DNA of 41,541 nt from a virus, in IMG/VR virus record IMGVR_UViG_3300007611_000004, positions 1-41,541 of that record. One strand, 5' to 3'. A model generated the notes under the pieces. That model was not told where the DNA came from and searched no databases. It worked only from the letters and a program-made list of their open reading frames with translations. A program made the translations under genes and the position numbers. Below are positions 25,711 through 38,282 of the stretch, piece by piece (position 1 is the stretch's first letter; every line of letters starts with the position of its first letter).

Positions 25711-26610
25711 ATGCCATACGTAAAAAGCATAAGACAAAATCATAGGCTCCCTCAATCTGAAAATTCCGTAGACAACTACTATGATATTCAAGGCGGTGAT
25801 CTAGTATATGACATGGGAGGTTATAGAGTCCACTGTTTCCTACAAACCGGAGCTCACGATTTTAACATTAAGCCTAAATTCGATCAACCAGATTTGATGC
25901 ATTTAGCTCCTCCTGTAGATGTAGAATACATGGTAATTGCCGGCGGCGGCGGCGGCGGTTCCGGCGGCGGATATTTTGGCCAAGGCGGTGGCGGCGGCGC
26001 TGGCGGATATAGAACAGGAACTCAGTCTGGCCTAACAGCAGGGAACTATTATGTGTATACCGGCCGAGGCGGGGACGGAGGAAATGATACAAGGGGATCT
26101 AGAGGTGGGAGCAGCACCTTTCGCAACATTGACTCATATGGCGGCGGCGGAGGTGGCCATCGATATAATGACGGGCAGTACGGCGGCTCCGGAGGCGGCG
26201 GCGGCCTAGAAGATTACAATGAATACAACGGTGGCGGCTCTACATCATATGGAAATAACGGCGGCAGCGCATATGCAAACAGATATAATTCACGTGCTGG
26301 CGGCGGCGGCGGCGCCGGCGGTAGTGGTGGCCGATATAATATGAGAGGCGGTTACGGAGCTTCAAACAATATAACCGGCAGTAACGTTTCTAGGGCCGGC
26401 GGCGGCGGAGGTGGCGGCGCCTCGTATATTGGCGACGGAGGTCCAGGACCGGCCGGTGGCGGCGACGGCGGACGATACGCCGCCGGCAGTGGAGCAAATA
26501 ACAACTACGGCTCCGGCGGCGGTGGCGGCGGTAATTATGACTATAATAATGACAATGCTCGCGGCGGCCACGGAATAGTTGTTGTGCGATATAAAACTCA
26601 AGGTCAATAA
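25711..26610 (+). CDS. Glycine-rich phage adhesin
   Basis: A 299-residue protein; AAGGAG (25700-25705) overlaps the previous stop and lies five bases before ATG. Residues ~1-70 contain GGYRVHCFLQTGAHDF, the lead-in commonly seen before polyglycine adhesins. From VEYMVIAGGGGGG to GGHGIVVVRYKTQG it follows the widespread phage glycine-rich pattern: short GGGGG blocks separated by loops such as AGGYRTGTQSG, TAGNYYVYTG and NITGSNVSRAGG. Related glycine-rich tips in T-even phages (gp38 of T2/S16) pack polyglycine II helices and contact receptors through the loops. The DNA is locally GC-rich, with GGC triplet runs unlike the A+T-rich neighbours. A receptor-binding tip is likely. Confidence 0.85.
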   Translation: MPYVKSIRQNHRLPQSENSVDNYYDIQGGDLVYDMGGYRVHCFLQTGAHDFNIKPKFDQPDLMHLAPPVDVEYMVIAGGGGGGSGGGYFGQGGGGGAGGYRTGTQSGLTAGNYYVYTGRGGDGGNDTRGSRGGSSTFRNIDSYGGGGGGHRYNDGQYGGSGGGGGLEDYNEYNGGGSTSYGNNGGSAYANRYNSRAGGGGGAGGSGGRYNMRGGYGASNNITGSNVSRAGGGGGGGASYIGDGGPGPAGGGDGGRYAAGSGANNNYGSGGGGGGNYDYNNDNARGGHGIVVVRYKTQGQ

Positions 26611-26613
26611 CGA

Positions 26614-27294
26614 ATGTGGCTCAGCAAAGCTAGAAATCTATCTCGTTTAAAAGAATATGATAGGCTAAAAGGTGTAGGAAGACAAAAAAAAATTTTTGAG
26701 CACGTGGGAGATCTGAAACTTACCTCCGCTTTTGCAATAAAAGAGGATAGCAACACCGTGCTATACAATTTTGAATCAGGTTCGTTCTCCAACGAATGGA
26801 CACAGACATCGAACTTTGCTGTGCGTACTGATCGATCTTTTCAGGGAAACTATAGCGCAGGTGAAACAGGATCTACAATAAATGCAGAATTGTCGCCAAG
26901 TGTCTTGTTAGGAGGCAGTCAAATATCTGCCTTTGAATTTTATTGGCAAGAAGAGACCAATCAGTCAGGATTTACAACACAACTTATTGATAGCAACGGT
27001 AACGAAGTTCTTGCCATGGGAGGGAACAATCCTCAATGGGAAATCCGAGACGGATCTGGTGACACAGAGATATACGGCGGCAACGGTTACGATAGATGGA
27101 TATATTACAGAATTGAATTCAACTGGTCGTCTAATCAACATTCTTATTTTTATCAAGATATGTCGACAAACACAATCAGATCAGGAACTAGATCTCTATC
27201 TAGAAACACCAACGTTGAAAAATTCCGCATTAATGCCAATATTTGGGGTAGCGCCGATTACATGTGGATAGATAATATAAAATTTGAATTATAA
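26614..27294 (+). CDS. Lectin/jelly-roll-like virion protein
   Basis: A 226-residue protein starting three bases after the preceding stop, without a clear ribosome site. A basic, probably helical N-terminus (MWLSKARNLSRLKEYDRLKG, residues 1-45) precedes a beta-rich domain beginning VLYNFESGSFSNEWTQTSNF, a pattern typical of carbohydrate-binding or concanavalin-like jelly rolls. Further strands include SAFEFYWQEET, YYRIEFNW and YMWIDNIKFEL at the very end. The last of these is a common closing strand of such folds. Position after the glycine-rich adhesin suggests a virion surface or fibre part. Family assignment is by pattern only. Confidence 0.7.
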   Translation: MWLSKARNLSRLKEYDRLKGVGRQKKIFEHVGDLKLTSAFAIKEDSNTVLYNFESGSFSNEWTQTSNFAVRTDRSFQGNYSAGETGSTINAELSPSVLLGGSQISAFEFYWQEETNQSGFTTQLIDSNGNEVLAMGGNNPQWEIRDGSGDTEIYGGNGYDRWIYYRIEFNWSSNQHSYFYQDMSTNTIRSGTRSLSRNTNVEKFRINANIWGSADYMWIDNIKFEL

Positions 27295-27296
27295 AA

Positions 27297-27692
27297 ATGC
27301 CGCAATTTAGAACCACTACAGATATTTTTACAAATTTAGAGCGTAACGAAATTTACGACGATCCTGTATATGATCCTGAAAAAACTCCTATTCCTTGGTT
27401 TAAGGAATGGGATTACAAGAGAGAGCTGAGGTTAGAAGACGTAGACATTTGGGAAGTGATTTCAGAAGCATCGGGAGGCGCAGGTTTATATGCAAGTCAT
27501 TTGCCCTACGCAGAATTCTACCTGTTAACAACTGGTCTTGACTCTGCAGTTGAATATAGAAAACCTTTTTTTGAAACTTTTTATGGGGCAAAAGCACAGT
27601 ACAAAGCAGCAAAAGCAGCTACAGATATTGGCTTAAAGATTTCATTTTCTAACGTATGGATTCCACCTGAAGAGGCATGGCTCTACTCATAG
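27297..27692 (+). CDS. Conserved small protein, paralogue of the 29718 gene
   Basis: A 131-residue protein whose start is two bases after the preceding stop. The function is not recognised. It shares an ordered set of motifs with the 118-residue product at 29718: EWDYKRELRLEDVDIWEVIS versus DWDYTVTPEISDVKFWEVIY, then LYASHLPYAEFYLL versus IFAAECPLIEFYLI, then ETFYGAKAQ versus EVFFGASAT and a final IG. It is soluble, with no signal peptide or membrane segment. The last 10 bases overlap the convergent oxygenase gene. Together the two copies bracket the oxygenase cassette. Confidence 0.75.
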   Translation: MPQFRTTTDIFTNLERNEIYDDPVYDPEKTPIPWFKEWDYKRELRLEDVDIWEVISEASGGAGLYASHLPYAEFYLLTTGLDSAVEYRKPFFETFYGAKAQYKAAKAATDIGLKISFSNVWIPPEEAWLYS

Positions 27693-28207
27693 GGAAAATA
27701 GTTAAAGTTTAAAACTAGTCTATACCTGCTGTTAGAACTTGTAGAACCTCTGTGCTTAAGATTAGAGTCAAAAATTATCATTCTATTCTCAACGCTTTCA
27801 ATTTTCTCTCCGTTTTCAAATTCAGTGTAACCGTTGTTTGTATTTAGGTAAAACACTGCAGTTTTGCCCATAAAGTTGTCATGATCTACATGGAAGGGAA
27901 AATCAATTACTTTGGGTGTGCAGAATGTGATATTTGCTTTGATTCTAACCAATGCACAAGGATTTATAACTTCTAATAACGGATTCAATACTTCTATATG
28001 AGGACTATTAGGGGCATTGTCTACATAGAACATATGCACAAATTGAAAATCAAATAGTTCTTTATTTGGTCCCATGTCGCCGTAATCTTCACCAACTTTG
28101 CTTTCACCATAAAACCAAGGAAAGTGTGGATTCATTATCTCATTGCGTAAATCTTTAAATGCATCGTTAGAAAGATAATTGTCGAAAACCTGTATTTTGT
28201 AAGTCAT
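27683..28207 (-). CDS. 2-oxoglutarate/Fe(II)-dependent oxygenase
   Basis: A 174-residue protein with AAGGAC upstream of ATG. It has the double-stranded beta-helix signature of the 2OG-Fe(II) oxygenase superfamily: HxD at H106/D108 (FPFHVDHDN), a distal histidine H152 (SNLKHRGSTS), and the 2OG-binding arginine in RYRLVLNFNY (R161/R163). These enzymes decarboxylate 2-oxoglutarate while hydroxylating a substrate; the substrate here is unknown. Its length and distal KHRG resemble marine-phage hydroxylases. It is the last gene of a three-gene minus-strand operon, and its 3' end overlaps the plus-strand gene by 10 bases. Confidence 0.85.
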   Translation of the reverse strand: MTYKIQVFDNYLSNDAFKDLRNEIMNPHFPWFYGESKVGEDYGDMGPNKELFDFQFVHMFYVDNAPNSPHIEVLNPLLEVINPCALVRIKANITFCTPKVIDFPFHVDHDNFMGKTAVFYLNTNNGYTEFENGEKIESVENRMIIFDSNLKHRGSTSSNSRYRLVLNFNYFPYE

Positions 28208-28229
28208 TTATTATATGTCCTTGTGTTGC

Positions 28230-29012
28230 CTATCCAAAAGGGCATTTTTGCTCTTTATTTTGTTTAATTTTTTCTTTTATTTTTTTCTTTTCTTTATATG
28301 TTTTTATGACTTCCTTAGGAGATCGCCCTAGTAGATTAATCATATGTTCTTCTGGTACTAGAGCCCTTATATCGTCTTTAGATACCAGATGATTTTTAAT
28401 CTCAATTTTTTTGTCTGTTAAAGGGTGCATTATTACTAGAGGTTCAAGAGGTTCAAAATTTACCACTGTCTCGCAATCCTTTTCGTATTTTAGAAAATAG
28501 TTGATGTTTACTTCTGATTGGTAATGAAAAAACATGATTCCTGGCATCAGTGTACAATTAGGCTTCGGAGACTGCAGAAAATTATACTCAGGATAAGTCC
28601 AGGTAAATTGTATATCTTCTTCTATTCTAAATCTCCACGGAGACAGTATTTTAAAATTTAAATAATCCGACTCCGCAATTACAGGATATTGTTCCGGGAC
28701 GTGAGACGCATCAAACTTGTCGTCTATATAACTTTGAGTGTAAGAAAAGGTTCTGTTATACGGATCATTAGCAGCATGTATGATCAACTCTGCTTGAAAA
28801 TAACTAGGTATTACAATGCCATTTTTGTAATACTCTTGAATTGCTTTACAATTTTTAATTGTAGTGTTCTCGCCGTTAACTTTGGGAGTATTACGCCACC
28901 ATTCGGGAAAAAATTGATTACCTTTTTGGATAGGAGCATTTTCATACACCATTTTATCAGCGGTATAACAGTGCAGAGTTAATGTATTTTTTTTCTTCTT
29001 AAATAAATTCAT
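28230..29012 (-). CDS. Conserved phage protein of unknown function
   Basis: A 260-residue protein. I chose the ATG at 29012 (MNLFKKKK) because it overlaps the upstream stop as ATGA, the usual coupling arrangement; the in-frame GTG at 29027 lies inside the upstream gene. Visible features are a basic start, QFFPEWWRNTP (~residues 33-43), IVIPSYFQAELII (~66-78), and a lysine/glutamate-rich tail (KEKKKIKEKIKQNKEQK) likely to be a charged helix. The PEWWRNTP plus later IP-S-F arrangement recalls a marine T4-like phage family of unknown function; this is recollection, not a search. Its position between two oxygenases suggests a shared job or substrate. Confidence 0.75.
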   Translation of the reverse strand: MNLFKKKKNTLTLHCYTADKMVYENAPIQKGNQFFPEWWRNTPKVNGENTTIKNCKAIQEYYKNGIVIPSYFQAELIIHAANDPYNRTFSYTQSYIDDKFDASHVPEQYPVIAESDYLNFKILSPWRFRIEEDIQFTWTYPEYNFLQSPKPNCTLMPGIMFFHYQSEVNINYFLKYEKDCETVVNFEPLEPLVIMHPLTDKKIEIKNHLVSKDDIRALVPEEHMINLLGRSPKEVIKTYKEKKKIKEKIKQNKEQKCPFG

Positions 29013-29638
29013 ACAGCGTGGAACCAAGTAACTAAAGCATATTTTGTACCACTTTGAACAGGTAATGCTTCATGAGTATATGCAAAGCTGGAAGGGAACA
29101 TAACCATTGTTCCCGCCTGCGGCGTAATTCTAACACCATGAAAAGGAAAATCTAGTTCCCCTCCTTCGAAAGTATCGTTGAGATAAATTAATACAGAAAT
29201 TGCTCGTGTAGGACAAGAAGTATGCCAGTCGCTGTGCTTGACATATCTTTGTCCTTGTTCGTATTTGAGAGCCTGAAACCCTTCAGAATCAAGTGTCATG
29301 TCAGTCTGAAAAAAATCTTCCACGTAACTTGTTAAGCCAGATTCTGTTGATAATTTGCATTGATTATGAAGGCCCTGAAACGGAGGAAAATCCATTTCAG
29401 ATGCAACTCTCGAAATAGGACATACAGAATTTGATCTCTTAGTTACATCTGTACCAGTTTGAAGAATTCGTGACTGCTCCCATTGCGCAGGAGATTCAGC
29501 GTCAGCGCATGAATCCTCTAAAACTGCTACTGCCTGGTCCGGTGCAGGGAAAGCATTTCGAAACACACTAATGCAGCCTGCGTAATTTTCAGCAGGTTCA
29601 AGTCTTCCAGCATATATGCCGTCAACAGTTATAGCCAT
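29009..29638 (-). CDS. Prolyl-4-hydroxylase-type 2OG/Fe(II) oxygenase
   Basis: A 209-residue protein with GAGGAGA six bases before ATG. The C-terminal half is a P4Hc/PKHD-type domain: HxD at H135/D137 (YVKHSDWH), the segment ISVLIYLNDTFEGGELDF, distal H189 (FAYTHEALPV), and K199 in GTKYALVTWFH as the likely 2-oxoglutarate-binding lysine. All expected catalytic positions are present. The N-terminal half (residues 1-105) has CISVFRNAF and is the usual helical lead-in. It is the first gene of the three-gene cassette and is coupled to the next by an ATGA overlap. The substrate is unknown; a virion or host protein is conceivable. Confidence 0.88.
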   Translation of the reverse strand: MAITVDGIYAGRLEPAENYAGCISVFRNAFPAPDQAVAVLEDSCADAESPAQWEQSRILQTGTDVTKRSNSVCPISRVASEMDFPPFQGLHNQCKLSTESGLTSYVEDFFQTDMTLDSEGFQALKYEQGQRYVKHSDWHTSCPTRAISVLIYLNDTFEGGELDFPFHGVRITPQAGTMVMFPSSFAYTHEALPVQSGTKYALVTWFHAV

Positions 29639-29717
29639 TAAATATCTCCTCGGTTAAATATAATTATGCAGTGCAGCTCTAATACTTTACATAAATGAGT
29701 ATATAAGTTTACAAAAA

Positions 29718-30074
29718 ATGCTGAAATTTGTCAACACCAAAAACATCTTTTCTTGTAATCTGTCTGATACATGGATAGAAAAAAATTGTTTGCCGGCAAG
29801 GCAAGACTGGGATTACACTGTAACTCCAGAAATTTCTGACGTAAAATTTTGGGAAGTAATTTATCATGAAGAAGGTATTATAAACATTTTTGCTGCTGAA
29901 TGTCCTTTGATAGAGTTTTATCTTATCTATCACAACATATTTGAAGGAATAGAAGAATCTACTGAAGTCTTTTTTGGCGCTAGTGCCACAGACGAATGTA
30001 TAGAACGCTGTAAATCTATAGGTATAGACCTAACTCAAAGACCTGGATATTCTAACCTAATTAGATCTAATTAA
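29718..30074 (+). CDS. Conserved small protein, paralogue of the 27297 gene
   Basis: A 118-residue protein of unknown function, divergent from the oxygenase operon across a 79-base gap. It shares the DWDY...WEVI...AAxxPxxEFYL...FFGA order of motifs with the 131-residue product at 27297. No clear Shine-Dalgarno site precedes the ATG. A weak late-promoter-like CATAAATG is at 29690-29697. The gene ends in a 16-base palindrome, so its last residues LIRSN are also the last residues of the convergent minus-strand gene. Confidence 0.7.
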   Translation: MLKFVNTKNIFSCNLSDTWIEKNCLPARQDWDYTVTPEISDVKFWEVIYHEEGIINIFAAECPLIEFYLIYHNIFEGIEESTEVFFGASATDECIERCKSIGIDLTQRPGYSNLIRSN

Positions 30075-30260
30075 AAAAAGATTGAATTTTGCATCATCAA
30101 AAAAAACTATTTTTTTACTAGTGATATCAAGGACTGCGTCATATTCAGTGCGCCACAAATTATACGCAGAATCATTTTTGCAATGACGCTTCAGTCTTAT
30201 TGTTTCTTTGATAATATTCGGTGCTATTTTATTATCTTCTAATAAGTTTAGTTCGATCAC
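30057..30260 (-). CDS. Small protein of unknown function (67 aa)
   Basis: A 67-residue reading frame starting at GTG: basic and helical first (IIKETIRLKRHC), then YNLWRTEYDAVLD and ITSKKIVFFDDAKFNLFL. The composition looks like a real small phage protein. No ribosome site is visible, and the minus-strand late box TATAAATA ends four bases before the GTG, so a transcript from that box would start at or inside the start codon. It overlaps the convergent 118-residue gene by 18 bases. It may be leaderless, driven from further upstream, or not a gene. Confidence 0.5.
   Translation of the reverse strand: MIELNLLEDNKIAPNIIKETIRLKRHCKNDSAYNLWRTEYDAVLDITSKKIVFFDDAKFNLFLIRSN
30058..30073. repeat. Perfect 16-base palindrome at the convergent gene ends
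   Basis: TAATTAGATCTAATTA is its own reverse complement and spans the 3' ends of both convergent genes. It codes for IRSN plus stop on each strand. It lacks a T-run on the correct side for an intrinsic terminator in either direction. Confidence 0.85.
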
Positions 30261-31385: not shown

Positions 31386-34300
31386 ATGGCAAAGACACAA
31401 ATTCAAGAATACGTATTCAAGCCTGGCATTGGCCTAAACGACAATTTATATCCTAATGCATACGATATGATTAGCAGTAATCTGTTGTTTATCGAAGCCG
31501 AGGCAACCGAATTCTTAGAGGCGCAAGCACTGAACGAAGTGCCTGGTTACATCGATTACAACTATTTGCCAAACGATGCTACTAGCATAGAAAATATTCT
31601 TAATGCTTTTATCTTTGATCTTAGGTATGGTGGCAACGCTAAAACAGTTGATGTTATTAGATTTTTCTATGAAAAAGACGTGTTTCAAATGCCGGGAGGA
31701 ACAACGGCTGTAAGCGGAATGATAGAATTTATAGGCAATCTCATTACTGAAAATATATTATCTAACCAAAATTTTGCAGCACGCAGTACGGAAACTCAAA
31801 CCATATTAGATGTGGACGCCGAGGAAGATGCATTTGAGAAAGTTGAAAGTTTAATAACTTTGACAAGAAATGTAATAGATACTGGTTTAGATGCTATTGC
31901 GGAAACGTCGACAGGTGCCGGCCATGTAAAAATCCAAGGAAGATATAATCTAGCTGATATACTGCTTGTTACGAATGTTAACACAAACACTATTTTGTAT
32001 AACTTTGGCGACCCTGACCTTGGTGGTGATATTGAATTAAATATAGGCGATCAAGATCCTGATTTCCCCACCTATTTACAGACTACAGATACCGTAACAA
32101 CTCTAAAGTTTAACACAAACACACTCGATCAGAACGAATCTGACGGATTACAGATCTTTGTTGAAAACTCGGAAAACGCACAAAGCATTACTACGGTAAG
32201 ACCATTTGATTTTGGAACTGATGCTATCGAAAGAATGAGGGTAGCAACTCCATATTCAATGCTAGACGCTGACTTCGAGTACGGACTGCAGCCTACAAAA
32301 TGGGCAGCGATTGGTGTCCAGCGAGGATACCCTTCTCTGTATGAAATACCAGGCACAGATACTCCTGTATCTACTGTTACAACTGATGCTAGTTTTGGTA
32401 ATACAACAGAGGACTTTTCATACGAATTAACGAATAATGGTAGTTCAGACTGGATAGTTTCTGGAGCAGACAGAAGCGGCAGTATAATAAACGAGCAAGA
32501 TCCAGGATTTTTGGTACGTGAAGGCGATAGACTAGAATTTACAAACAATGCAAGCAGCACACATCCTTTATATTTAAAAACTGTTTCAGAAGCAGGAACT
32601 AATAATCTTATCGAAGGAGTAGACGGCCAAGGAGCTTTTGGAGGCGATACTGTAACCTGGCAAACCACTCTCGGAGATTCAGGTACCTACTATTACACAT
32701 GTGCAAACCATTCGAATATGATAGGTGTTATAACGGTAGAAGCTGCTGATAGCAACACTGGTGTGGGCCAGAGTGAAATTACTGTAAATACTGTTACGCC
32801 TCATGGAGTAACAGCGGGGGAGCCTATCACGATAAAAGCACTTGAAGACGGAGTTGTAGGTGCAGCACGCGCTGAAGGAGCATTTGTTGTCACAGAAACT
32901 CCGGACGAAAACACATTGAGATATTTTGCAAAAGCAAAAGTAGGTTCAGCTCCTGGTGATATTTTGTCCACTACGTACACTCAATTGAGGAGAGCAGGTT
33001 TTTACACCGGTGCAAGTATAGGAACTCCTTCTTTTGAGCTAATTAGCAACGGTAGCGAAGGAACAATTACCACAGAACTAGAAGTAGCAAGTGAATCCAC
33101 AATTATTCCCTATGATGGAATAAACCCCCCAGTGGGGTCTCCAATTGTTGGAAATGCAAGTATTGGTCAAAATACACAGGTGACTGGTGTTATTCAAACA
33201 TCGGCCGGGGGTGGAACTTATATTACAGTTGAAATCGACGGAGACTACACTACAGGAGAAACACTAGTAACTTTGGTAGATGCCTCTGGAGTAGTTCCAA
33301 ATCTTGCTTTCGACTCAGGCAACGGAGTAGCTACTTTTGTACAGTCGATTAACGGTAATAATATTATTTTGTCGGATCCTCTAAATGCGCCTTTACTAGG
33401 AACAACCAATACCTATACAAATATATCTGGGACTAACGATAATACCAGCGGTTCTGGAGCTAATTTTGATGTAACAGTTGGTTCGGGCGTATACGAGATA
33501 GCCTCTATCAATAATGGAGGAGTTGCATACAAAGCAGGGGACCGACTTCTAGTTTCTGGTACTAACCTAGGGGGTGGTTCGCCGGAGCACGATTTAGTAA
33601 TGGTTGTCGAAATTGTAGACGATACAGGGTCTATTCAAGCAACATCGCAGGAAGGCACGCCTTTTGATGGAACCGAAACTGTGTCTAATATTTCTCCGCA
33701 AGACGAAGTAATCGGTTCAGGGGTGCCTTTGTTTGACGTTTCTTACACAGACAATGTCTATTCTGTATCAGTGTCAGCCAGCGATGCTTCTCAAGATTAT
33801 GCACCTGCCGATAGATTGTTGATTACAGGAACAGATGCTAATGGACAAACTCCGGACAACGATGTTATTGTTACCGTTAGCACTGTAGATGCGTCGGGTA
33901 AAATTACAGGAGTCACAAGTGAAGGTACGGCTCCTGATGCAGCTTTAGAATTCGCAGATGTGCCTTATCAAGGAGGCACAGGCACTGCTGCTACGTTTAC
34001 TGTGCGAACTTTAGGCGAAATCTATGCATTAGAAATAACAGCGCCAGGCACAGGATACGTTATAGGAGATAATATAACGGTTATTGGCAGCGACATCGGA
34101 GGGTCTTCGCCTGAGAACGACCTTACAGTAACAATAGATAACGTAGACGGGGCCGGTGGAATAACCGAATATATTATATCAGGTACTGCCAATAATTCGG
34201 ATAGTGTCAATGATATTACAGCTACTAATGTTTTAGGTTCAGGATTAGAGGTAACAGTAAGCCTTGACGCAGGCGCATACACTCTTAACAGTGTTGATCA

Positions 34301-37300
34301 GACAGGGTCTGCCTATGCACCTGATCAAACTTTTTTAATTCCAGGAAGTGCTCTGTATGGTGTCAGTCCAGATAATGATCTAAATTTCACCGTTACAACA
34401 GTTGATGCAACAGGTGCTGTAACAGGTGCTTCAGTTTCAGGCACTGCTGCCCAGGGAGGCGGAACTTTCACTGTTACAGGATCGCCGCAACAGCCGATAG
34501 GAGAGAATGCAACTTTCAATGTTGAAAGAATTTCCGGTACTTATGAAGCCTTTGTAAACAATGGCGGAACAGATTATAAGGCAGGTAACCGCATAGTTTT
34601 GAGCGGCGACGATCTAGGAGGAAGTTCTCCTACCAATGATGTTACAGTAAGAGTAAATGCTGTGGACAGCAGCAGCGCAATTTTGAGTGTTTTAACAGAG
34701 GATAATAATGCTCCTGTGGCACCGGATTATGATTTAATATCTACTGTACTATTATCAGAACCAACAGAAGACATTATTCCTCGACAGACTGAAATTGATT
34801 ACAAAGCTCTTGCGACTTTAGAAGCCCAGTTTGAAAATGCACACGGGTTGGTGCCAGGAAGCACCTTTATTGTGACAATACAATCTGAGAGCGAAACTAA
34901 CAACCACGACCTTGCAGCCGGCAGTTTTATTGCTACTGATATCCCCTCAGCAACAAGATTAAGATTCCAAGCAAGGACATCAGGAACTATTTTAGAAGAA
35001 GATCAGATTAACGGATCGATTTACCCTAGACCAGATTCCTTTTTTATTCACAGACCGTTTGACGGTGGAGTTCAACTAGGAACAGGCGGCCCTCAACACG
35101 GAGCACAGGCTATTCGTCAGAGCAAAAAATATATTCGTTATCAGTCTGGAAAAGGCATAATGTATACTACTGGTGCCCTATTTGCGCCTTCCTATGATAT
35201 AAGAAGTGTAGAAGCAGAAGATGTAGAAGTAGGAAGTTTGATTACTGTTACTACCGACGACAACGATCACGGACTCCAGGTCGGCGGCATTGTAAGATTG
35301 TTAGGAGTAGAAACACCCGGCTATAATTCAGGACCGTCTACAGCATTACCGCCTGCGTTTGACTACGAAGTAAATTCAATCATCGACGAAAGAACATTTA
35401 CGATAAGAGCACAAAGAAGACTTGGAGATACAACAGCAGTGCTAGGATTTGACTCTCAGGTTAGTGTTATTGCTTGGCACGGCGCAACAGTAAGGTCTGG
35501 AATATTCGACGATCAAAATGGCATATTCTGGGAATTCGACGGCACTCAGATTAGCGTAGTACAGCGCACAGGAACCAAGCAGATCGCTGGCACAGTATCT
35601 GTAACAGTTGATAGCAATCTTATAAACGGGAACAATACAAAATTTAGAGATCAGCTCAAAGCCGGCGATCGCTTGGTTATCAAGGGCATGACCCATGTGA
35701 TAAGTCATGTTATTGACCAAACTACAATGACTGTTACTCCGGACTGGAGAGGTGTTGTTGATGTGTACGCTGCAAAGGCAAATCTTGTTATCGATAAAAA
35801 AGTTAAACAGAAAGATTTTAATCTGGATAGGTTAGACGGCACTGGGCCAAGCGGTTATGATGTAGATATAGCAAAAATGCAGATGATAGGTATACAATAC
35901 TCTTGGTACGGCGCTGGCTTTATTGACTTTATGTTGCGTGGAGCAGACGGCGATTTTGTTTATGCCCATAGGATGAGAAACTCCAACGTCAACACAGAAG
36001 CATTCATGAGGTCAGGTAACTTGCCCGTTAGATACGAAGTTACAAACGAAGGTCCTCCGGGTAAACTTGCTGAACCAATGTCGGCAGAACAGGATTTTCT
36101 AGAATTAGAAGATTCAAGTTTTTTTCCTGATTCAGGAGTATTATATATTGATAATGAAATAATCACATTTTCAGGCAAAGGCACAAACGGAAATCGACTA
36201 ATCGGATTGAATAGAGGCGCTAATTATGTAAACTATCAAGCAGGCGCATCAAGGAATTACACTGCTGGTTTTCCTGCTGAACATGCAGCACGTACAGGCG
36301 TGATACTACTAAGTAACACAATTACTCCGCTAATCAGTCACTGGGGATCTGCATTTATTACGGACGGACAATTTGACGACGACCGTGGATATCTGTTCTC
36401 ATATTCGGAAACTGGAGTTAACATCAGTACCACTCGCAAAACTGCGTTTATGTTGAGGCTAGCACCCAGTGTGTCTAACGCACTTGTAGGGGATCTAGGA
36501 GAAAGAGAGCTACTAAACAGAGCGCAGTTGCTACTAGATGGTATTGAAATAACATCACAAGACGGCAATGGAGGCATAGTTGTTGAAGGATTGCTTAATC
36601 CGCAAAATTATCCTGTAGATCCAGACAGCGTGTCTTGGCAAGGGCTACAGTCACTGGCTCAAGGCGGACAACCAAGCTTTGCTCAAATAGCACCCGGCGG
36701 CGGCATCGACTGGACCACGAATGACACTGTTACAACCGAGACTGTTACTACGCAGAGTGACTTGCAAGGCACAGCTAGCATTGAGTTCAATCGTCGCAAT
36801 CGAGATTACATGTACGTGTTAAGGAATGATTGGGAGTCTCTAAATGCCGCCGTAGGTGATTTTGTAATAAACAGTGCTGGAGGAGCAAATTTCGGATCAG
36901 GTTTAAGAATTCGTCTCGTAAGAGGCCCGTATAACTTTAGAGGTACGCGATACTATATAATCTACACTGATGGCAGATATAACGGCACTACTTCAGGAAA
37001 TATAACTGTAGAACGACGTTTCACTACTACTGATAGAAGCTTTGCGTTTGTTGATAACACAACATATTCAGCTTCTGGAGTTAAGTCAGGGACAGATGTT
37101 TCTGAAACTGGAGGATCGGTTACTTTTCCTGGAGGAACCAGCGTTGCATCGATCGAAGAACAAGAATTTAACGGTACCACGTATCTAAGGTTAAGCTTCA
37201 ATAACTCATACGAAGGTACTTTGAGCGATGGAAGTGGGACTATCGAATTTGAGTTTTCTCAGCCTCCGTATGCGCAACCCGGAGAACAGGTATTCTCATT

Positions 37301-37487
37301 TATTGCTGTCCCGGGAGAAAGGTCTACCTTGAAACTTGACTCTCTGAAAGAAATAACGAACACTCCGCTTGGAGGACGAGGTACATTTCCAAACGGACCC
37401 GATGTGCTCGCAATAAATGTATATAAAGTCTCAGGCCAAGAAATCGACGGAAATATTATTCTAAAATGGGGCGAAGCACAGGCTTAA
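31386..37487 (+). CDS. Giant (2033 aa) modular structural protein with cupredoxin domain
   Basis: The largest gene in the window; CGGAGA (31375-31380) precedes ATG by five bases. Residues ~1-130 are alpha-helical and carry IFDLRYGGNAKTVDVIRFF, a motif recurring in the 17430 product. A cupredoxin-like domain (~337-450) has STHPLYLKT and YYTCANHSNMIG, a full His/Cys/His/Met set. Five tandem ~88-residue repeats (~682-1110) share a YAxGDRLLVSGTNLGGxSPxxDL pattern. A conserved marine-phage structural segment follows (YIRYQSGKGIMYTTGALF; AWHGATVRSGIFDDQNGIFW; IQYSWYGAGFIDFMLRG; HRMRNSNVNTEAFMRSGNLP). The C-terminal ~300 residues are beta-rich. It is probably a baseplate or tail-tip appendage. Its stop overlaps the convergent cupin gene by four bases. 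Confidence 0.85.
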   Translation: MAKTQIQEYVFKPGIGLNDNLYPNAYDMISSNLLFIEAEATEFLEAQALNEVPGYIDYNYLPNDATSIENILNAFIFDLRYGGNAKTVDVIRFFYEKDVFQMPGGTTAVSGMIEFIGNLITENILSNQNFAARSTETQTILDVDAEEDAFEKVESLITLTRNVIDTGLDAIAETSTGAGHVKIQGRYNLADILLVTNVNTNTILYNFGDPDLGGDIELNIGDQDPDFPTYLQTTDTVTTLKFNTNTLDQNESDGLQIFVENSENAQSITTVRPFDFGTDAIERMRVATPYSMLDADFEYGLQPTKWAAIGVQRGYPSLYEIPGTDTPVSTVTTDASFGNTTEDFSYELTNNGSSDWIVSGADRSGSIINEQDPGFLVREGDRLEFTNNASSTHPLYLKTVSEAGTNNLIEGVDGQGAFGGDTVTWQTTLGDSGTYYYTCANHSNMIGVITVEAADSNTGVGQSEITVNTVTPHGVTAGEPITIKALEDGVVGAARAEGAFVVTETPDENTLRYFAKAKVGSAPGDILSTTYTQLRRAGFYTGASIGTPSFELISNGSEGTITTELEVASESTIIPYDGINPPVGSPIVGNASIGQNTQVTGVIQTSAGGGTYITVEIDGDYTTGETLVTLVDASGVVPNLAFDSGNGVATFVQSINGNNIILSDPLNAPLLGTTNTYTNISGTNDNTSGSGANFDVTVGSGVYEIASINNGGVAYKAGDRLLVSGTNLGGGSPEHDLVMVVEIVDDTGSIQATSQEGTPFDGTETVSNISPQDEVIGSGVPLFDVSYTDNVYSVSVSASDASQDYAPADRLLITGTDANGQTPDNDVIVTVSTVDASGKITGVTSEGTAPDAALEFADVPYQGGTGTAATFTVRTLGEIYALEITAPGTGYVIGDNITVIGSDIGGSSPENDLTVTIDNVDGAGGITEYIISGTANNSDSVNDITATNVLGSGLEVTVSLDAGAYTLNSVDQTGSAYAPDQTFLIPGSALYGVSPDNDLNFTVTTVDATGAVTGASVSGTAAQGGGTFTVTGSPQQPIGENATFNVERISGTYEAFVNNGGTDYKAGNRIVLSGDDLGGSSPTNDVTVRVNAVDSSSAILSVLTEDNNAPVAPDYDLISTVLLSEPTEDIIPRQTEIDYKALATLEAQFENAHGLVPGSTFIVTIQSESETNNHDLAAGSFIATDIPSATRLRFQARTSGTILEEDQINGSIYPRPDSFFIHRPFDGGVQLGTGGPQHGAQAIRQSKKYIRYQSGKGIMYTTGALFAPSYDIRSVEAEDVEVGSLITVTTDDNDHGLQVGGIVRLLGVETPGYNSGPSTALPPAFDYEVNSIIDERTFTIRAQRRLGDTTAVLGFDSQVSVIAWHGATVRSGIFDDQNGIFWEFDGTQISVVQRTGTKQIAGTVSVTVDSNLINGNNTKFRDQLKAGDRLVIKGMTHVISHVIDQTTMTVTPDWRGVVDVYAAKANLVIDKKVKQKDFNLDRLDGTGPSGYDVDIAKMQMIGIQYSWYGAGFIDFMLRGADGDFVYAHRMRNSNVNTEAFMRSGNLPVRYEVTNEGPPGKLAEPMSAEQDFLELEDSSFFPDSGVLYIDNEIITFSGKGTNGNRLIGLNRGANYVNYQAGASRNYTAGFPAEHAARTGVILLSNTITPLISHWGSAFITDGQFDDDRGYLFSYSETGVNISTTRKTAFMLRLAPSVSNALVGDLGERELLNRAQLLLDGIEITSQDGNGGIVVEGLLNPQNYPVDPDSVSWQGLQSLAQGGQPSFAQIAPGGGIDWTTNDTVTTETVTTQSDLQGTASIEFNRRNRDYMYVLRNDWESLNAAVGDFVINSAGGANFGSGLRIRLVRGPYNFRGTRYYIIYTDGRYNGTTSGNITVERRFTTTDRSFAFVDNTTYSASGVKSGTDVSETGGSVTFPGGTSVASIEEQEFNGTTYLRLSFNNSYEGTLSDGSGTIEFEFSQPPYAQPGEQVFSFIAVPGERSTLKLDSLKEITNTPLGGRGTFPNGPDVLAINVYKVSGQEIDGNIILKWGEAQA
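33430..34715 (+). repeat. Five tandem ~88-codon repeats within the 2033-residue gene
   Basis: Units begin near 33430, 33700, 33965, 34228 and 34492. Each follows GSGAxFxV...YxxxxxxxGxxYxxGDxLxxxGxxxGGxSPxNDLxVTVxxVDxxGxI. Protein identity between units is moderate and DNA identity is low, so these are old duplications. Confidence 0.75.
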
Positions 37488-37852
37488 TAATTAGGTAGGT
37501 AATAGAGGTCTGTAAATGTTTCGCATGAACCAACTTCGGTAATACTTGCTTCGTTTGTTCTTGATTCTAATTGATGAGGCACGAGTAAAGGCGCTGTCCA
37601 GACATCGCCTTCACGCAGTATTTGATCCTTCATTTCAGCTGTTTGAATATCAATATACCTTAATATAAATTCGCCGGTGTTAACAAAGAATGATTTTTGT
37701 CTTTTCTTGTGAAAAAAGAGCGGAGTCATGCTGCCTGCAGCTTCAAAAACTAAAATTTTACCACAGTAGTCATCGGTATTACTCCAGATGAGATCATATC
37801 CATAGTCTGTTTTTAAAAGTCCTTCGGTATTTGACTTCTTTCTTTCAGTCAT
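37484..37852 (-). CDS. Cupin-fold protein with incomplete metal site
   Basis: A 122-residue single-domain cupin resembling the C-terminal half of type II mannose-6-phosphate isomerase/guanylyltransferase proteins. The opening DYGYDLIWSNTDDYCGKILV and the two cupin motifs are visible. In motif 1 (GSMTPLFFHKKRQKSFFVNTG) the first histidine is replaced by phenylalanine (F46) and the glutamate is missing, leaving H48. In motif 2 (GDVWTAPLLVPHQLES) H93 is kept. Metal binding is therefore doubtful; a ligand-binding or structural role is possible. The start overlaps the Nudix gene by eight bases, and the stop overlaps the convergent 2033-residue gene by four. Confidence 0.75.
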   Translation of the reverse strand: MTERKKSNTEGLLKTDYGYDLIWSNTDDYCGKILVFEAAGSMTPLFFHKKRQKSFFVNTGEFILRYIDIQTAEMKDQILREGDVWTAPLLVPHQLESRTNEASITEVGSCETFTDLYYLPNY

Positions 37853-38282
37853 TGTCTATAAGGTTCCTTACTTCGTAGATTGTTTTGATTTTGGTTTGAT
37901 TATGTTTTTTTGCAAGAGTATTTTTTAAGCCGTAGTGCAATGGCCGAGGCCAATTATTATACGATACCCAGGCATATCCGTCGTGTTCTTGATTTAAAAA
38001 AGGTAAAAATTCATTCTTTATTACACAAACATAGGTGTGAAATGTAAAGTTTTTATCTGCAGATACAAATTTTTCAAGAGGAACAGTTTTAAGAATATCT
38101 ACCCGGCCTATTTCTTCTTGTATTTCTCTTTGCAATCCTTCCCAAGGAGTTTCTATGTTTTCTGTAGCTCCGCCAACAATACCCCATACATTGCTTTTCT
38201 TTCCTTGAGTGCGATGAACAAAAAGAAATCTTTCGGTGTCGAGATTGTAAAAAAGGGCGCCAGCGCATACTAGATCGGACAT
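37845..38282 (-). CDS. Nudix hydrolase
   Basis: A 145-residue protein with a nearly perfect Nudix box, G-x5-E-x7-RE-x2-EE-x-G, at residues 38-59 (GATENIETPWEGLQREIQEE then IG), preceded by WGIVGG. The catalytic Arg, Glu and Gly positions are present; the final hydrophobic position is Arg. Nudix enzymes hydrolyse nucleoside diphosphates linked to another group. The substrate cannot be read here, but the HRTQGKKSNVWGIVGG lead-in is typical of MutT/ADP-ribose-type members. It starts 13 bases after the gp15-like gene without a visible ribosome site and overlaps the cupin gene, so it appears to be co-transcribed with virion assembly genes. Confidence 0.88.
   Translation of the reverse strand: MSDLVCAGALFYNLDTERFLFVHRTQGKKSNVWGIVGGATENIETPWEGLQREIQEEIGRVDILKTVPLEKFVSADKNFTFHTYVCVIKNEFLPFLNQEHDGYAWVSYNNWPRPLHYGLKNTLAKKHNQTKIKTIYEVRNLIDND

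Follow-up and report, generated by a model that had tools for sequence, protein, structure and literature searches.

The virus record IMGVR_UViG_3300007611_000004 of IMG/VR, treated here as a single window of 41,541 nucleotides (41.5 kb), carries among its tail and baseplate genes a cassette of five open reading frames (ORFs; positions 27297-30074) in which two paralogous plus-strand genes for small proteins, sL and sR, surround a minus-strand operon of oxB, unk and oxA, with oxB as the first gene. Both ox genes encode oxygenases of the 2-oxoglutarate (2OG)-Fe(II) type, and the locus represents, in small form, a module that is widespread in aquatic tailed phages. The steadiest neighbor of the small gene is not an oxygenase gene but the gene for a glycine-rich (Gly-rich) adhesin, and the proline content of the Gly-rich domain rises with the number of 2OG genes at the locus. 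The chances are about even that the module performs "tail-tip tailoring," in which enzymes and a chaperone-like small protein mature the tip of a receptor-binding adhesin. By such a mechanism the Gly-rich receptor-binding protein would be made together with a small folding chaperone or adaptor (sL/sR), and the convergent operon of prolyl-4-hydroxylase (P4H)-type and related 2OG-Fe(II) oxygenases would hydroxylate its Gly-rich domain, chiefly at prolines in Pro-Gly contexts. Flavin halogenases, present in many relatives, would add further modification to the tip, and hydroxylation would tune tip stability or receptor binding. A first-pass annotation of this DNA had described the two-oxygenase operon between plus-strand paralogues, all five ORFs of which are confirmed, and had raised the idea that virion proteins are modified; that idea is partly supported and broadened here, and the module itself is real and conserved.

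Relatives of the cassette were gathered through the small proteins. Searches of IMG/VR matched 35 loci with sL as query and 17 with an sR alignment, and a search with an alignment of the whole small family gave 98 confirmed stretches, of which the best 80 were kept. After removal of 14 redundant loci (pieces or a sister contig of the window, repeated contigs), 89 contigs were clustered by their small proteins at 90% identity, which gave 61 groups. Of the 60 groups with an upstream neighbor, 39 have as that neighbor a Gly-rich adhesin gene on the strand of the small gene, and 54 have one within three genes upstream; the gap between adhesin gene and small gene is in most cases about 20 bp or less. 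The two genes are directly adjacent in most relatives, and in the window one ORF (226 aa) stands between them. A 2OG gene is found in 46 of the 61 groups, a flavin halogenase in 31 and one or the other in 49, and in 38 groups an opposite-strand 2OG, halogenase or phrog_7084/17480-type gene follows within three genes of the small gene. The small gene is present in two or more copies in 16 groups; 13 of these, among them that of the window, have oxygenase genes between the first and second copy, so that the bracketed operon, proposed earlier as a functional module, does recur as one. One contig (L018) has its small-gene copies in tandem and its oxygenases upstream of the adhesin, and the cassette and small-gene copies therefore shift relative to each other. 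Gly-rich adhesins fetched by DNA pattern with their neighbors disregarded (n=108, no domain-length filter) served as a control set. Of the 55 small-gene groups, 37 have a 2OG gene and 28 a halogenase no farther than 4 kb from the adhesin, compared with 16 and 0 of the 108 controls (Fisher p 3e-11 for 2OG). The 17 long contigs total 1.76 Mb; in them none of the 12 halogenase matches is farther than 5.6 kb from a small gene, and 12 of the 14 oxB-profile matches are at most 4.7 kb away from one. The probability of such clustering by chance is about 2e-4 for halogenases and 8e-7 for oxB with one of a near-identical contig pair counted, the latter figure leaving out one contig that does not fit (G003) and a lone far match in the dropped contig (G015).

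The composition of the adhesin points to the Gly-rich domain as a candidate substrate. In the first sample (set 1), which comprises 55 of the 61 groups, six with no adhesin within 2.5 kb being left out, proline makes up 5.9% of the Gly-rich domain where at least two 2OG genes are present (n=30), 2.8% with one (n=9) and 2.5% where there is none (n=16). Proline tracks 2OG number (rho 0.69, p 6e-9) more closely than any other of the 20 residues, and does so too in groups with at least 5 kb of downstream DNA (rho 0.68, n=48). Proline shows no significant difference in the small protein (p 0.88), in the tail proteins encoded upstream (p 0.23) or in the N-terminal part of the adhesin (p 0.24). Pro-Gly dipeptides number 23.9 per 1000 in oxygenase-rich groups vs. 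5.9 in those with none, and X-Pro-Gly is the classical site of collagen P4H. When the gene counts are entered together in one regression, those of PhyH-like (t 4.2) and oxB (t 2.2) genes account for the effect, and those of oxA (0.2) and halogenase (0.7) genes have no bearing on it. Proline had been picked after a scan of many residues, a circumstance that counts against the proposed modification, and it was therefore retested in a second sample. For this set 2, 120 loci were fetched, 119 had a motif ORF, and 105 remained after one overlap and short or duplicate ones were removed; none has a small gene and none overlaps set 1, and the domain was cut slightly differently (12 Gly per 30 residues in set 1, 11 in set 2). 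Proline is again elevated, at 5.3% with at least two 2OG genes (n=8) vs. 2.2% (n=89; p 0.0014), and again tops the 20 residues (rho 0.34), with other proteins of the loci at rho -0.004. The earlier suggestion that the oxygenases hydroxylate virion proteins thereby gains indirect support from both sets. The link could be indirect: Pro-rich adhesins and oxygenase-rich genomes might both be favored by some hidden variable, for instance host group, salinity or temperature. Consistent with such a factor, GC content differs between the groups, being lower, not higher, in the proline-rich one (0.39 vs. 0.42 in set 1), glutamine rises as well, and the tree used for independent contrasts, built on the small protein, is rough. 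The proline effect nevertheless survives both a regression adjusted for GC (t 5.95 in set 1, 3.93 in set 2) and the contrasts on that tree (t 4.35, p 6e-5; controls p 0.81 and 0.41), and the control proteins show none of it, which makes a hidden factor an unlikely explanation.

Several further observations weigh against hydroxylation of the adhesin by the neighboring enzymes. In the DNA examined, 12 of the 61 groups have neither a 2OG nor a halogenase gene, and whole contigs of these 12 groups and one near relative gave 0 of 13 with PF13640 or phrog_274. Small genes thus occur independently of oxygenases in about a fifth of relatives, the association being otherwise strong; the earlier proposal that the small proteins partner the oxygenases keeps that association in its favor and has the steadier adhesin linkage and the enzyme-free groups against it. 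The isolates S-H9-1 and P-HM2 hold related oxygenases away from tail-fiber genes. Glutamine also increases with 2OG number (rho 0.53, second of 20 residues in set 1). Proline precedes GGSGGG in 14 of 32 cases vs. 0 of 11 in set 1, but in 0 of 10 in set 2. The second set has just eight loci with at least two 2OG genes, and its statistics carry no tree correction. The PhyH-like profile drifted during building (345 members), the core motif being present in 17 of the 43 ORFs so labeled, and the split by enzyme subfamily is soft for this reason. In the cyanophage syn9 there are about eight 2OG-type genes, yet its three long Gly-rich proteins contain 1.5-2.5% proline. Finally, among the 30 groups with at least two oxygenases the window ranks last for proline in the Gly-rich domain of its adhesin (1.8%); past its start this domain holds two prolines only, P245 and P247 (GGPGPAGG). 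The substrate at this locus may therefore be another residue or another protein.

Of the two enzymes of the operon, oxB is a P4H-type 2OG oxygenase by its sequence, and peptidyl-proline hydroxylation is its predicted activity. Its PF13640 match lies above the Pfam cut-off, and H135, D137 and H189 are invariant and K199 nearly invariant in an alignment of 18 rows. In PDB the profile of oxB finds entries named prolyl 4-hydroxylase, 3itq/5hv0 at E 1.9e-12 and 5c5t at E 6e-9. The full N-terminal region of oxB was looked for in isolates, with no match. The weaker PF13640 match of oxA falls under the cut-off, and its family, phrog_274, bears the label "DNA endonuclease V," yet has the HxD...H...R of 2OG oxygenases. 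The window protein has all of H106-x-D108, H152 and R163; in an alignment of 14 rows H106, H152 and R163 are invariant and D108 is lost in two divergent rows. The statement in the first-pass annotation that both oxygenases keep their iron and 2OG ligands thus holds for oxB (H135/D137/H189/K199) and oxA (H106/D108/H152/R163) alike. A loose triad pattern is present in 133 of 175 oxA-type ORFs, compared with 31% of shuffled sequences, and some members of this family appear from their sequences not to be intact. For unk, phrog_7084 is the sole match of weight. Its AlphaFold2 (AF2) model found nothing below 0.001 in Foldseek (best E 1.1e-3) and aligned with the dUTPase 2y8c in VIA-align at Z 9.8 over 120 residues, and a dUTPase-like beta-clip fold is predicted from this model. 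An in-frame ATG at 29012, overlapping the oxB stop, is the probable true start of unk. It has been proposed that phage 2OG enzymes modulate 2OG or act in DNA repair (Sullivan et al., 2010; PMC3037559), and the oxygenases of the cassette might by extension be auxiliary metabolic genes that serve metabolism or DNA (2OG consumption, nitrogen signaling, DNA repair) from a variable tail region, as would fit with phage 2OG genes also being found away from tail genes. This is quite improbable, given that the solved structures closest to oxB are those of protein prolyl hydroxylases and that full-length oxB matches cluster tightly at the small gene in the long contigs.

The small proteins sL and sR are clearly related to each other (their Smith-Waterman score is 125, and the highest among 1000 shuffles was 52), and tblastn with sL matches sR in the same record (E 1.5e-10). 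The motifs by which they were first recognized as paralogues, WDY, WEVI, EFYL and GA, are present in both, with the correction that the reported DWDY reads EWDY in sL. In a tree of 89 different small proteins one branch splits 18 sR-type from 71 sL-type members (SH-aLRT 98%), and a smaller, earlier tree gave the same split; sL and sR are therefore old paralogues. All 18 sR-type proteins are second copies on their contigs, or nearest to that in cut contigs. As only 12 of these 18 were labeled second copy when the tree was built, the group test of the tree program (five changes) reflects the author's labels. A local duplication followed by insertion of the operon between the copies, as first envisaged, is not supported by either tree, as both resolve two old lineages. 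Tandem small-gene copies with no insert do occur (L011, L015, L018). The family had no match among 50,697 phage records of INPHARED with two members as queries and none in GTDB contigs; sL and sR had no match to PDB sequences at E 10 and none of weight in Pfam or PHROG. The Pfam family Glyco_hydro_2_N2 was set aside for the small protein, its E-value of 0.007 being below the cut-off. Fold searches with Foldseek and VIA returned nothing above Z 5 and no similarity to solved chaperones, BFVD yielded two uncultured-phage relatives only at E < 0.001, and single-sequence scans with sR and with unk matched only the window's own sister contig. Judged by gene position, with the same-strand adhesin gene so regularly upstream, sL and sR probably act as chaperones or adaptors of the tip. 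They may instead be structural subunits of the tail tip, a somewhat less probable reading that deserves serious weight: small genes directly follow the adhesin gene, two divergent copies have been kept over long times, and no likeness to solved chaperones was found. Against it, their size and position resemble those of fiber-tip chaperones such as gp25 of phage Pam3, a 162-aa protein undetected in virions (PMC9608196).

Cassettes elsewhere in relatives are richer, with many oxygenases plus flavin halogenases; one contig (L004) encodes two Trp_halogenase proteins (E 6e-104 and 2e-91). A residue enrichment tied to halogenases was sought in the Gly-rich domains of set 1 and set aside. Loci with more halogenases have more His (rho 0.49), Gln (rho 0.55) and Pro there, Trp shows a weak trend only, and no residue stands out clearly as the one that would be halogenated. 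It is rather doubtful that a portable set of P4H/PhyH oxygenases and flavin halogenases, traveling with sL/sR, hydroxylates prolines and halogenates aromatic residues while the adhesin co-evolves. The PHROG labels of phrog_274 ("DNA endonuclease V"), phrog_2954 ("ferrochelatase") and phrog_1644 ("minor coat protein") appear to hide 2OG-type oxygenases here. Alignments of two of these three families, phrog_274 and phrog_2954, conserve HxD...H. The HxD and H positions are invariant among the phrog_2954 proteins, which for that reason resemble 2OG enzymes; a PDB profile search with these proteins did not confirm a 2OG identity. The phrog_1644 protein corresponds to DUF6445 in Pfam and was counted, as we infer, as 2OG-like. 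In pelagiphages 2OG genes have been described as adjoining "ferrochelatases" (PMC9599517), which, if they belong to phrog_2954, may be further oxygenases. In six contigs (L155, L164, L167, L171, L173 and L184) oxB-like genes, about 6-10 per array, and phrog_7084 genes alternate beside tail genes, with no small gene, and the array of L164 also has short-chain dehydrogenase and glutathione-peroxidase-like genes. A family of about 170 aa (up172; L004 13191-13709 and relatives) precedes sR-type genes in several contigs and directly follows the Gly-rich gene in the isolates HTVC008M, S-H38 and syn9. An O-methyltransferase-like gene, a short-chain dehydrogenase/reductase (SDR) and a glutathione peroxidase accompany some cassettes, as might be expected if the cluster made a small molecule or decorated surface glycans of the infected cell and merely sat in a variable spot by the tail-fiber genes. 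Such a product has been predicted for a jumbo-cyanophage cluster with halogenase, 2OG and cupin-like enzymes and methyltransferases (Iyer et al., 2021; PMC7824862). This explanation also seems unlikely, leaving as it does both the proline content of the neighboring adhesin domain and the tight linkage of adhesin and small gene over 61 groups unexplained.

The features of the locus are collected in Table 1. The PF21722 match of the adhesin (60.4 bits) exceeds the gathering cut-off of 24.3. Short minus-strand ORFs that look alike by eye (LW...Y.A pattern) lie 3' of sR-type genes in L060, L066 and L080. Farther along the window, a 2033-aa virion protein (31386-37487) has a plastocyanin/cupredoxin-like stretch (HPLYLKT...TYYYTCANHSNMIGVITV), and on the minus strand (37484-38282) a cupin gene (phrog_7851, "cysteine dioxygenase") and a NUDIX gene adjoin a gp15-type sheath-stabilizer gene. 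The best match of the latter is to jumbo phages of the PA5oct/MIJ3 kind (37% identity over 99%), and in PA5oct-like jumbo phages a NUDIX gene likewise adjoins the gp15-type gene.

Table 1. Genes of the cassette and its immediate surroundings in the window.
Feature	Position	Strand	Basis
Gly-rich tail-tip adhesin, proposed substrate	25711..26610	+	PF21722 Gly_rich_2 E 3.5e-16; phrog_2295 E 3.7e-39
226-aa protein between adhesin and sL	26614..27294	+	no credible Pfam/PHROG match
sL, small protein, first-copy lineage	27297..27692	+	IMG/VR family; trees; AF2 model pLDDT 80
oxA, 2OG-Fe(II) oxygenase of phrog_274	27683..28207	-	phrog_274 E 1.7e-49; PF13640 E 7e-5
unk, phrog_7084 protein, predicted dUTPase-like beta-clip fold	28230..29027	-	PHROG match; AF2 pLDDT 81.7
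oxB, prolyl-4-hydroxylase-type 2OG oxygenase	29009..29638	-	PF13640 E 3e-19; conserved ligands
sR, small protein, second-copy lineage	29718..30074	+	paralogy with sL; tree
Short convergent ORF 3' of sR	30057..30260	-	ORF list

Few "auxiliary metabolic genes" of marine phages are as common as those for 2OG-type oxygenases, and the role of these enzymes is unsettled. Phage flavin halogenases have, to our knowledge, no known native substrate. The physical and compositional tie to the adhesin merges these two puzzles into one question, namely whether phage adhesins are hydroxylated or halogenated. If they are, VirX1-type halogenases and many marine-phage 2OG genes would gain their missing native substrate, the receptor-binding tips of aquatic phages would be chemically extended beyond the 20 amino acids, and the enzyme-driven chemical diversification of adhesins would constitute a new axis of phage-host recognition. 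Such 2OG genes are numerous in 14 of 16 cyanophage genomes (PMC3037559). A literature search covering titles, the beginnings of abstracts and selected passages returned no paper linking phage oxygenases to the modification of Gly-rich adhesins. Hydroxyproline in viral proteins has been addressed in earlier work (Eriksson et al., 1999, as cited in PMC9301287), and P4H together with collagen in viral tail fibers has been raised in general terms (PMC9301287).

Several characterized phages carry part of this arrangement. The isolate syn9 has Gly-rich genes, two halogenases, an unk-type gene and its 2OG-type genes in a row after a tail fiber gene; it differs in that no sL/sR was found, its cluster lies on the tail-gene strand and its adhesins are low in proline. 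Its sister phage Syn10 is, we presume, the source of VirX1. In the Pelagibacter phage HTVC008M a Gly-rich gene, whose product has 4.1% proline, is followed by a minus-strand run of 2OG genes ahead of the neck genes, but an up172-type gene stands where the small gene would be. The cluster of the jumbo cyanophage S-SSM6a likewise combines a halogenase with several 2OG enzymes, and has been predicted to make a metabolite or decorate the capsule (Iyer et al., 2021; PMC7824862). On the enzyme side, the profile of oxB matches 3itq/5hv0 and 5c5t, which we take to be P4Hs of the Bacillus type and of PBCV-1, respectively. Compared with these, oxB has an N-terminal region of its own and sits in a phage tail-region operon, and its substrate is putative. 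On the adhesin side, the pairing of a Gly-rich receptor-binding domain with a dedicated small partner has a parallel in gp24/gp25 of Pam3 (gp24 is 39% Gly; gp25 is a fiber-tip chaperone) and in gp38 of S16, a system for which the passages describing it mention no oxygenases (PMC9608196). The proteins sL and sR differ from that system in having neither a sequence match nor a convincing fold match to solved structures. Pam3 gp24-gp25 is the closest structural precedent for an adhesin with its partner, and the P4Hs are the closest precedents for the enzymes.

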